Origin: Betaproteobacteria bacterium
GTDB lineage: Bacteria; Pseudomonadota; Gammaproteobacteria; Burkholderiales; Casimicrobiaceae
Assembly (NCBI GenBank): GCA_005881895.1
Contig: VBCG01000010.1
Span: 1-33,109, forward strand
Reading direction: 5' to 3'
DNA length: 33,109 bases
Part shown: in pieces, positions 7,442-22,067 of the stretch
Position numbering within the stretch: position 1 is the first letter of the stretch
Layout of the letters: the number at the start of each line of letters is the position of its first letter
Translations under genes and position numbers: made by a program
Notes under the pieces: generated by a model
Databases searched by the model: none
Told to the model about the DNA's origin: nothing
What the model saw: the letters and a program-made list of their open reading frames with translations, nothing else

Positions 7442-7527
7442 CGCTAGCAGCTTCCCGCCGGGCCGCCCCAAGGGAGGCTTGCTCCCCCTCTGGGGGCAGC
7501 GAACAAAGTGAGCGTGGGGGTCGTCAT
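7442..7527. repeat. GC-rich junction repeat, copy A, with bridging mini-ORF (hflK/hflC)
   Basis: This stretch matches copy B at 21327-21425 in opposite orientation relative to the genes. Shared blocks on plus are CCGCCGGGCCGCCCCAAGG, the hairpin core CTCCCCCTCTGGGGGCAG and AGCGTGGGGGTC. In the gene direction (minus) an ATG at 7527 overlaps the hflK stop as ATGA, and the frame stays open for 27 codons to TAG at 7446-7444, two bases before the hflC ATG. GAGGGA near the hflK end could serve as its ribosome-binding site. The predicted peptide is rich in Pro, Gly and Thr with no recognisable domain. It may keep ribosomes moving from hflK to hflC rather than make a useful peptide. Confidence 0.8.
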
Positions 7528-19932: not shown

Positions 19933-21330
19933 CTACCCCATCATCCCGAGCGCCTTCGGCAGCCAGATCGACAGCGACGGCCAATAGGTGACGATGACGA
20001 GGAAGACCAACATCGTGACCAACCACGGCCAAACGGCGATCGTCAGCTCCGTGATGCCCATCTTCGTGATGCCGGACGCCACGTAGAGGTTCAAGCCCAC
20101 GGGTGGGTGGCACATGCCGACCTCCATGTTGACCACCATCATGATTCCGAAGTGCACGGGGTCGATGCCGAGCTTCATCGCGACCGGAAATAGAATCGGC
20201 GCCATGATCAGCACGATCGATGACGGCTCCATCACGTTACCGGCGAGCAGCAACAAGACGTTCACGACGAGCAGGAACGCGACGACGCCGAGGCCTTTGT
20301 CGAGCATCCATGCGGCGAGGACCTGCGGAATCTGCTCGGAGGTCATCAAATAGCTGAACATCACCGCGTTGGTGATGATGTACAACAGCATCGCGCTCAT
20401 GTTGGCCGAGTCGAGCAGTATCTTGGGCACGCGCGACAGCGGCATGTCGCGGTACACGAACACGGCGACAAAGAACGCGTACACGGCGCTCATCGCCGCG
20501 GCTTCGGTCGGCGTGAAGATGCCGGTGTAGATGCCGCCGATGACGACAACGATCAGCAGCAGCCCCCACATGCTTTCGCGAAAAGCGCGCAGACGCTCGC
20601 CCCAGCTCACCACCGGCTGGCGGGGATAGTTGTTCTTGCGCGCTCGCCACCATGTGGTCAGTCCAAGCATCGTCGCCAGAAACAGGCCCGGAATGATGCC
20701 CGCAATGAAGAGCTGGCCCACCGACGTATTGGTCGCGACCGCGTACATCACCATCACGATCGACGGCGGAATCAGGATGCCAAGCGCGCCTGACGTGGTG
20801 ATGACCCCCGCGCCGAAACGCTTTGGGAAGCCCTGGTTGACCATGGCGGGCAGAATGATCGAGCCGATGGCGACGACGGTCGCCGGCGAGGAGCCGGAAA
20901 CAGCGGCGAAAAGCGCGCAGGCCAGCACACCGGCGAGGCCGAGTCCGCCGTGCCAATGGCCGACCATTGAAGTGGCGAAATGGATCATCCGCCGCGCGAC
21001 GCCGCCGTGCGTCAGGAAATTGCCGGCAAGGATGAAGAACGGGATCGCCATGATCTCGAACTTTTCGATGCCGGTGAAGAGTTTCAGCGCCACCGACTGG
21101 ATCGGGACCTGAGTCATCGTGAACAGGTAAACGAGCACGGTGAGCCCGAGCGAGATCGAGATCGGCATGCCGGTCAGCATCAAGCCGATCAACAGCGAGA
21201 AGATGATCCATGCGTTGGCGATATCGACGCCGGCGAGCCGAAGCGAGAACGGAATCGCGATGATCGCGATGGGCAGTAGCGCGGGCCAGCGACCCCCGGT
21301 CGGCAGAACGACGGGCGCTGCGGCGGTCAT
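19933..21330 (-). CDS. dctM: TRAP transporter large permease subunit (DctM)
   Basis: The ion-coupled transport subunit of a tripartite ATP-independent periplasmic transporter, which imports carboxylates or related acids using a sodium or proton gradient. The 465-residue protein is almost wholly hydrophobic with a dozen or more membrane helices. Family segments include GIEKFEIMAIPFFILAG, SGSSPATVVAIGSIILPAM, GILIPPSIVMVMYAV, FTPTEAAAMSAVYAFF and MEVGMCHPPVGLNLYV. It has about 35 residues with one extra hydrophobic stretch before the usual DctM start (around ANAWIIFSLLIGLMLTG). The ATG at 21330 overlaps the stop of a repeat-derived mini-ORF (21327-21425). GGGGGT four bases upstream may act as ribosome-binding site. 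Confidence 0.95.
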   Translation of the reverse strand: MTAAAPVVLPTGGRWPALLPIAIIAIPFSLRLAGVDIANAWIIFSLLIGLMLTGMPISISLGLTVLVYLFTMTQVPIQSVALKLFTGIEKFEIMAIPFFILAGNFLTHGGVARRMIHFATSMVGHWHGGLGLAGVLACALFAAVSGSSPATVVAIGSIILPAMVNQGFPKRFGAGVITTSGALGILIPPSIVMVMYAVATNTSVGQLFIAGIIPGLFLATMLGLTTWWRARKNNYPRQPVVSWGERLRAFRESMWGLLLIVVVIGGIYTGIFTPTEAAAMSAVYAFFVAVFVYRDMPLSRVPKILLDSANMSAMLLYIITNAVMFSYLMTSEQIPQVLAAWMLDKGLGVVAFLLVVNVLLLLAGNVMEPSSIVLIMAPILFPVAMKLGIDPVHFGIMMVVNMEVGMCHPPVGLNLYVASGITKMGITELTIAVWPWLVTMLVFLVIVTYWPSLSIWLPKALGMMG

Positions 21331-21425
21331 TGGACCCCCACGCTTGCGGCTGTCGCCGCTACGCTCTGCCCTCTGCCCCCAGAGGGGGAGTAATTCCCGC
21401 CTTGGGACGGCCCGGCGGCGGTCAT
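21327..21425. repeat. GC-rich junction repeat, copy B, with bridging mini-ORF (dctQ/dctM)
   Basis: Second copy of the repeat at 7442-7527, inverted relative to gene direction. On minus it reads CCGCCGGGCCGTCCCAAGG, then CTCCCCCTCTGGGGGCAG, then AGCGTGGGGGTC. An ATG at 21425 overlaps the dctQ stop as ATGA. The frame is open for 32 codons and its TGA (21329-21327) overlaps the dctM ATG, again as ATGA. The sequence ATGACCGCCGC occurs at both ends, once in the mini-ORF start and once as the dctM start, so it may be a target duplication of an ancestral dctQ/dctM ATGA junction. The peptide is rich in Gly, Ala and Ser and has no known domain. Confidence 0.8.
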
Positions 21426-22012
21426 GGAGCGGCTTTCAGATCCGCGGGATGCAACGACGGAATTGCGGCCGGGGCGTCGACGCCTTCGACGTGCGCAATA
21501 TCGTGATGCGGCAACTCACCGGTGCGCCAAAACGACCACGCCACCTGAAGAAAACGAAAGCACATCAGGTACGAGCCCAGCGGGATGCACAAGTAGACGA
21601 TCCACTTCGGCACCTCGAGGTCGGGCGACGTCGAGTCGGTATGCCCGATGTCCCAAACGAATCCGGCGCCCAACGTGCCGACGATGCCCGTGAACAGCGC
21701 ACCGGCCAGGAGGCCGAACTGCACATACCATTTGCGCGTGTCGCCCGGCAGCCGGTTGATCATGACGTCGACGCCGACGTGGATGCCGGTGCGAACGCCA
21801 TAGGCGGCGCCGAACTTTGCCATCCACACGAACATGTAGATGCAAAGCTCCTGCGCCCAGGACAAGTCGAGCCGAATCAGAAAATCCTGCACACCGGGAA
21901 TCGCGACGCCCGCCGCGTACCGATGCACGACGGCGATGAAGATCACGAGCGTCGCCGCGCCCATGAGAAACGCGATCAACCATTCCTCGAGATGATCGAG
22001 CCATTTCAGCAT
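21422..22012 (-). CDS. dctQ: TRAP transporter small permease subunit (DctQ)
   Basis: The small membrane subunit of the TRAP system, pairing with DctM. The 196-residue protein has four membrane helices (about residues 12-33, 55-75, 95-120 and 138-160), with SWAQELCIYMFVWMAKFGAAYGVR matching the DctQ signature. I chose ATG 22012 because AGGGAGG lies seven bases upstream; an in-frame ATG at 22039 and the open frame up to 22096 lack such a site. It is separated from dctP by 253 bases, unusually wide for a TRAP operon, and from dctM by a repeat. Confidence 0.93.
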   Translation of the reverse strand: MLKWLDHLEEWLIAFLMGAATLVIFIAVVHRYAAGVAIPGVQDFLIRLDLSWAQELCIYMFVWMAKFGAAYGVRTGIHVGVDVMINRLPGDTRKWYVQFGLLAGALFTGIVGTLGAGFVWDIGHTDSTSPDLEVPKWIVYLCIPLGSYLMCFRFLQVAWSFWRTGELPHHDIAHVEGVDAPAAIPSLHPADLKAAP

Positions 22013-22067
22013 GGAGCCGCCTCCCTGTGTCTCGGTCATCCCGGACGGGCGCCGATTAGACGGGCGT

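Follow-up and report, generated by a model that had tools for sequence, protein, structure and literature searches.

The original description of the MIRUs of mycobacteria reportedly included a DTGA target, an ORF that overlaps both neighbouring genes, and tandem copies. In the passages that a 2025 review devotes to them (PMC12548453, citing Supply 1997), MIRUs are mobile elements inserted at start codons, and the ORF of the repeat is coupled to the gene at a spacing of -4 nt. ORF-bearing MITEs, including the Rickettsia palindromic elements, ERIC, Correia-107, YPAL and RU-3, appear in the relevant part of PMC2229807 as dispersed elements of ~100-200 bp with stem-loops, whose frames are fused in frame to genes. 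For the GTAG REPs, the corresponding section of PMC3733652 notes that the termini often give a stop codon to flanking ORFs.

The repeat considered here lies in a window of 33,109 nucleotides (the whole stretch of DNA analysed) from a betaproteobacterial genome. Its copy B lies between dctQ and dctM of a TRAP transporter locus, where Pfam confirmed DctM, DctQ and DctP (Table 1). As the initial annotation had reported, a mini-ORF of 32 codons, encoding MTAAGPSQGGNYSPSGGRGQSVAATAASVGVQ and a stop, runs through copy B. It begins with an ATG that overlaps the dctQ stop in ATGA and ends with a TGA that overlaps the dctM start in a second ATGA, and the same 11-mer, ATGACCGCCGC, is found at both of its ends. 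Searched against Rfam at the gathering threshold, the window yields only a tRNA.

Table 1. Features of repeat copies A and B and of the dctQ/dctM junction (window coordinates).
Feature	Position	Strand	Basis or remark
Repeat copy B, 95-nt long form	21331..21425	-	nhmmer 90.7 bits, model 1-95; alignment of 40 copies
Putative relay mini-ORF of copy B, 32 codons + stop	21327..21425	-	reading frame
Left ATGA, dctQ stop / mini-ORF start overlap	21422..21425	-	within element left-end consensus
Right ATGA, mini-ORF stop / native dctM start	21327..21330	-	N-terminus from here resembles G021 orthologue
GTGGGGG, Shine-Dalgarno-like right end, 4 nt before dctM ATG	21335..21341	-	duplex energy -9.3 kcal/mol with a typical anti-SD
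Hairpin 1, CCGCC...GGCGG in copy B, GCGCC...GGCGC in most copies	21397..21421	-	alignment fold; 2 pairs with both-sided changes
Hairpin 2, CCCCCTCTGGGGG	21376..21388	-	alignment fold
Hairpin 3	21340..21364	-	alignment fold
dctQ, TRAP transporter small permease	21422..22015	-	Pfam PF04290; upper limit as used, start codon unrefined
dctM, TRAP transporter large permease	19933..21330	-	Pfam PF06808
Repeat copy A, divergent, antisense to its own operon	7455..7510	+	nhmmer 23.8 bits, model 8-64
Putative relay mini-ORF of copy A (mRNA sense), 27 codons + TAG	7444..7527	-	opens in ATGA at stop of upstream hflK-like gene

Copy B belongs to a large repeat family. At least 56 distinct copies, mostly 80-109 bp long, were found in its own genome by nhmmer, whose matches span 56-109 nt; the model was built from 25 copies and, run with --dna and --max, gave 74 matches in 60 loci, all in that genome. 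BLAST of the same genome gave at least 46 matches, with 40 of the 122 first-look candidates scored. A 13-base core matched with up to one mismatch occurs 53 times in the genome and once for the reversed control, which places the repeat far above chance. The consensus begins with ATGAGCGCCGC and finishes with GTGGGGGTCCA, and the alignment fold places three separate hairpins between ends that stay unpaired and thus form no terminal inverted repeats. Both-sided changes occur in 4 of the 22 predicted pairs, and the covariation term is small. The repeat exists in short and long-stem forms.

With at most 14 candidates scored per genome, the repeat was matched in at least 26 of 61 genomes searched, namely its own, 16 of 21 further genus members and 9 of 15 genomes from elsewhere in the family; at the same depth, the 24 genomes from other families of the order gave no match. 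A pattern scan omitting the left end found 37 copies in 36 stretches of MAGs labelled Betaproteobacteria or taxa within it, some of them Casimicrobiaceae, and these copies overlap with the 169-copy set used below and are not independent of it. The plasmid search returned one weak match, covering 52% of the query, in Azoarcus sp. KH32C, the phage search returned none for the repeat, and a literature search of open-licence papers found no paper on it. Y1-transposase genes are present in 10 of the 22 genus genomes, and none of their 14 loci (PF01797) has a copy within ~1.5 kb on each side at most, which lends no support to a RAYT as mobiliser.

The left ~29 nt (ATGAGCGCCGCCGGGCCG.CCC.AGGCGC) also recurs with other right halves in several genus members (among them G008, G012, G019 and G001; loci L204, L212, L260 and L275-L304), and some of these modules stand in tandem arrays with a period of ~75-95 bp. 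They are possibly sister families of the same element, and a left module common to differing right halves may suggest that a putative class of relay elements is diversifying. At L173 and L168, tandem arrays are read through as one frame of 126-127 codons that encodes a repeated peptide; this may be a repeat protein or a chain of merged relays.

The family carries a stop-start pair at its left end. From 182 unique copies, 169 had a usable left end, which reads NTGA in 123 (ATGA 104, GTGA 16, TTGA 2, CTGA 1) and NNTC in 28. In the pattern scan, where the left end played no part in the search, 31 of 37 copies have TGA there. Enough flanking sequence was available for 160 copies (114 NTGA, 28 NNTC and 18 with another left end), and coding frames around them were called with a home-made codon model. 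A co-directional gene was called upstream in 50 of the 114 NTGA copies, an antisense one in 7 and none above threshold in 57. For 40 of the 50, the stop of the gene is the TGA of the element (p = 1.7e-11 against one third).

Downstream frames are also unevenly used. A forward coding call was missing for 42 of the 114 NTGA copies; among the remaining 72, the gene lies in the relay frame in 43, in the frame continuous with the element (fusion) in 22 and in the third frame in only 7 (p = 3e-6 against one third), which suggests a general rule. These p-values, like the others given here, are too small, since copies share ancestry or stand in tandem and are not independent. In the own genome alone the deficit of the third frame is modest (3 of 24, p = 0.02). 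The NNTC copies (4 relay, 6 fusion, 2 third) resemble the NTGA copies and so provide no clear contrast, and of the 18 copies with another left end, 9 had a call, 6 in the relay frame, 3 in the fusion frame and none in the third. At L094 (G011) and L108 (G016), a probable single shared insertion, one copy is in the third frame and one is frame-shifted, in this order or the reverse. In 51 of the 114 NTGA copies the mini-ORF ends in DTGA near the right end, giving a relay at -4 nt spacing; 40 of these 51 run into starts that are not element sequence, and 38 of the 40 have a coding score above 5. In a substitution test by codon position, which gives weak support, synonymous changes slightly exceed expectation in 53 short-form copies (138 against 106) but not in 10 long-form copies (20 against 17.6).

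Fusion frames read like MSAAGPSQGANYSPSGG... and then the protein. We listed 30 long frames that start in NTGA copies and chose 10 for Pfam analysis. All 10 keep their domains, and the match to the first one begins within positions 1-4 of the profile and within residues 28-60 of the protein, where the element ends or beyond it. Among the proteins are a nucleotidyl transferase (rfbA-like), prephenate dehydrogenase, MurB, RNase H, a YbgC-like thioesterase, AnmK and a CoA-transferase. Within the list of 30, the frames at L026, L027, L043, L168, L173 and L183 look spurious or confined to the element, and that at L037 may be a broken gene.

The right end supplies a Shine-Dalgarno-like site. Duplex energies were computed against a typical anti-SD, with random sites rather than gene starts as the control, and on this scale the median energy before the right start of the 51 relays is -9.3 kcal/mol. 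An energy of -7 kcal/mol or better is found at 92% of these right starts, at 39% of the left starts and at 4.8% of random sites (n = 1500). The G run of the right end is also present in copies away from starts. In the fusion copies (n = 21) the site before the left start is weak (median -2.7 kcal/mol), so that some fusion genes may start at a GTG within the element or further in. At L025 (positions 1501-1593), a copy stands at the start of a gene that is cmk-like by eye; an SD-like GAGGA precedes the ATG of the element, the mini-ORF soon reaches a stop, and the true start of the gene may be the GTG within the element.

Relatives provide occupied and empty sites for comparison. The element is absent beside four dctQ orthologues that are 74-82% identical. 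In G021, G020 and G004 the two genes share a direct ATGA overlap; in G006 they are separated by a short spacer. This agrees with the ancestral ATGA junction that the initial annotation had proposed, and copy B probably sits at such a former junction. Similarly, ruvB and ybgC (RuvB and a thioesterase by Pfam) overlap in ATGA in G003, G007 and G008. In the own genome a native-looking ATG at this site starts a frame of 5 codons (MTPRR) closed by the TGA of the element, and the ATG of the element lies 14 bases beyond the native start, inside the gene and in frame into ybgC; in this case the ATGA belongs to the element.

At ilvB/ilvH, 16 loci of the genus were readable, with both genes supported by Pfam in G002. 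The two genes overlap directly in ATGA in G005 only and in TGATG in G006, G008, G017 and G020, and are a few bases apart in G000 and G013. Longer spacers occur at the other 9 loci, two of which carry this repeat: G011 has one copy with a 31-codon frame, and G002 has two tandem copies that form one 60-codon frame, each frame ending in the ATGA of ilvH. The nine spacers of this hot spot (L203-L219) range from ~50 to >160 bp and differ in sequence; many open in TGA at the ilvB stop, and several have a GGAGG-like or GGGAG-like run before ilvH.

Copy A is flanked by an hflK-like gene (HflK_N and Band_7 by Pfam) and a second Band_7 gene, probably hflC from the gene order. The TAG of its mini-ORF stands 2 nt ahead of the next ATG. 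Both operons are read on the minus strand, with copy B on the minus and copy A on the plus strand, so B is sense and A antisense. The relay frame is open in both orientations (32 codons in B, 27 in A), as first noted.

So, what is copy B? We favour, at a probability of roughly 0.7, a family of short palindromic repeats, dispersed and presumably non-autonomous, that are compatible with operons and carry a portable stop-start pair and a ribosome site. The left end bears NTGA (nearly always ATGA or GTGA), whose TGA would end the upstream gene and whose ATG or GTG would open the frame of the element; the body has three hairpins and is usually free of stops in that frame, and the right end holds a Shine-Dalgarno-like site just ahead of the start that follows. 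Placed in a former ATGA overlap, such an element would create a two-step termination-reinitiation relay, from dctQ to the mini-ORF to dctM. Where the frame runs on into the gene, the element would become an N-terminal extension of ~27-36 residues, the frame thus setting the outcome, relay or fusion. Dispersal and element-free sites point to mobility, and the frame bias would stem from the loss of insertions that break the frame. The structural pattern is real, with fair statistical support, and the arrangement agrees with the stop-start relay first proposed; that the mini-ORF is translated and passes ribosomes on is what we infer from the sequence.

An ordinary REP- or MITE-like palindrome with no translational role, its ATGA and open frames arising from GC-rich sequence and subfamily ancestry, would account for the hairpins, the tandem arrays and the two orientations, and high GC does make open frames common. 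It would also accommodate the 28 of 160 flanked copies with NNTC, where none of three called co-directional upstream frames ends at the left-end position. The openness of the element itself speaks both ways. With the right anchor found in 112 of 114 NTGA, 25 of 28 NNTC and all 18 other copies, the stretch from the left ATG to GTGGGGG is in frame and stop-free in 85 of 112 NTGA against 10 of 25 NNTC copies (Fisher p = 0.0013) and in 12 of 18 others, but only the own genome shows the contrast, with 28 of 40 against 3 of 15; relatives have similar shares of open copies in the two classes (57 of 72 NTGA, 7 of 10 NNTC). Against a palindrome of this kind stand the upstream frame match, the rarity of the third frame and the common length offsets of 75, 84, 87, 90, 96 and 102, which keep the frame, although 74 is also common (12 copies). 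We consider it unlikely. Less likely still is a module recruited by the host for regulation, in which the GGGGG ribosome site would be masked by the hairpins as long as the mini-ORF is untranslated, making the downstream gene dependent on the upstream one. In the single fold of copy B RNA, some of the right-hand Gs do pair with the left end, and the site before dctM is stronger (-9.3 kcal/mol) than at element-free dctM orthologues (-7.1, -5.0 and -6.6). That fold is little better than shuffled sequence, however (z = -1.72; 10 of 200 shuffles equally good), and the empty site in the four orthologues found argues against conserved regulation at dctQ/dctM.

The 11-mer at both ends of copy B had been read as a possible target duplication. 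In the corresponding alternative, the element would have no ATGA of its own, and ~4-11 bases of an ATGA junction, the start codon among them, would be duplicated when it inserts. Some statistics lean this way: left positions 5-8 match the copy's own right start 104 times against 92.4 when shuffled (p = 5e-5; 40 relays with non-element starts), and 94 against 83.6 (p = 1.5e-4) in 37 coding copies minus copy B. Among the 123 NTGA copies, moreover, C at position 5 is found in copy B alone, whose right start carries C there as well; in hairpin 1, however, that C has a matching G as its partner, and 3 NNTC copies have C at position 5 too. The match is less remarkable than it seems, since 10 of its 11 bases are those of the consensus left end, ATGAGCGCCGC. 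ATGAGC stands at the left of most copies regardless of the right side (second codon AGC in 38 of 44 left and 22 of 44 right ends), and the ybgC element brings its ATGA 14 bases into the gene. A left-end/right-start match of 11-12 bases, ignoring the first base, occurs in 9 of 51 relays, of which 8 run into further element-like sequence and the ninth is copy B, the one case in which the matching start is that of a real gene. Nor is long duplication general: matches of at least 7 bases occur in 12% of 75 NTGA copies against 4.7% of shuffled pairs. Long flank repeats occur at L167 (12 bp), L117 (10 bp) and L017 (9 bp), 3 of the 100 copies (from 160) kept in this test. L017 (1193-1286) is a copy with an NNTC left end between 9-bp direct repeats, TACTCATTC. 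We therefore reject the 11-bp target duplication as a general rule, the match being mostly the element's own left end, and regard duplication as the origin of the ATGA pair as rather unlikely; the weak copy-specific similarity may, in some copies, stem from the duplication of a few bases or from gene conversion at a later time.

If the portable stop-start reading is correct, insertion into gene-dense operons becomes tolerable through a carried stop-start pair and ribosome site, a trick otherwise cited for MIRUs. The same insert beside different genes, with and without it, offers many natural replicates for measuring termination-reinitiation, and the fusions offer a route for the birth of new N-terminal protein segments. 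They are also a warning for annotation, as the starts of rfbA-, tyrA-, murB-, rnhA- and ybgC-like genes may be mis-set by the insert.

How, then, does the family compare with described systems? It shares palindromic repeats with the REP/RAYT systems as covered in the source cited above, but is longer and is tagged by NTGA (123 of 169), NNTC (28 of 169) or other ends rather than GTAG/CGTC. With the Rickettsia palindromic elements, as far as the cited part describes them, it shares in-frame joining to protein genes (22 of 72 NTGA copies); unlike in those elements and MITEs, fusion here occurs at the protein start with the element's own ATG or GTG, the relay is commoner, and the consensus fold leaves the ends unpaired. 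The MIRUs are closest. Like them, the family is a short dispersed repeat at many loci, with at least 56 copies in one genome; as in the review's passages on MIRUs, it is inserted at start codons with an ORF coupled at -4 nt (51 of 114 NTGA copies). The reported DTGA target has its counterpart in the NTGA of 123 of 169 copies, nearly all ATGA or GTGA. The relay idea, for which the initial annotation knew no name, thus has a published precedent (PMC12548453). The host differs, being betaproteobacterial rather than mycobacterial, with all 36 pattern-scan stretches from betaproteobacterial MAGs. Set against the MIRU description only, the three GC-rich hairpins, the NNTC second class, the fusion outcome (22 of 72) and the SD-like right end appear particular to the repeat described here. 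Tentatively, and at somewhat less than even odds, DTGA relay elements may form a general, convergent class of selfish DNA, in which at least two unrelated lineages, in mycobacteria and betaproteobacteria, would each have arrived at a portable junction for operons, made up of a stop, a start, a hairpin frame without stops and a ribosome site. Such a junction would let a repeat spread among operons at little cost, N-terminal fusion being the other outcome. A start-codon repeat with a coupled ORF is known from the MIRUs, as the review's passages present them; the host clade is new, and the hairpins, the fusion outcome and the SD-like end appear to be.
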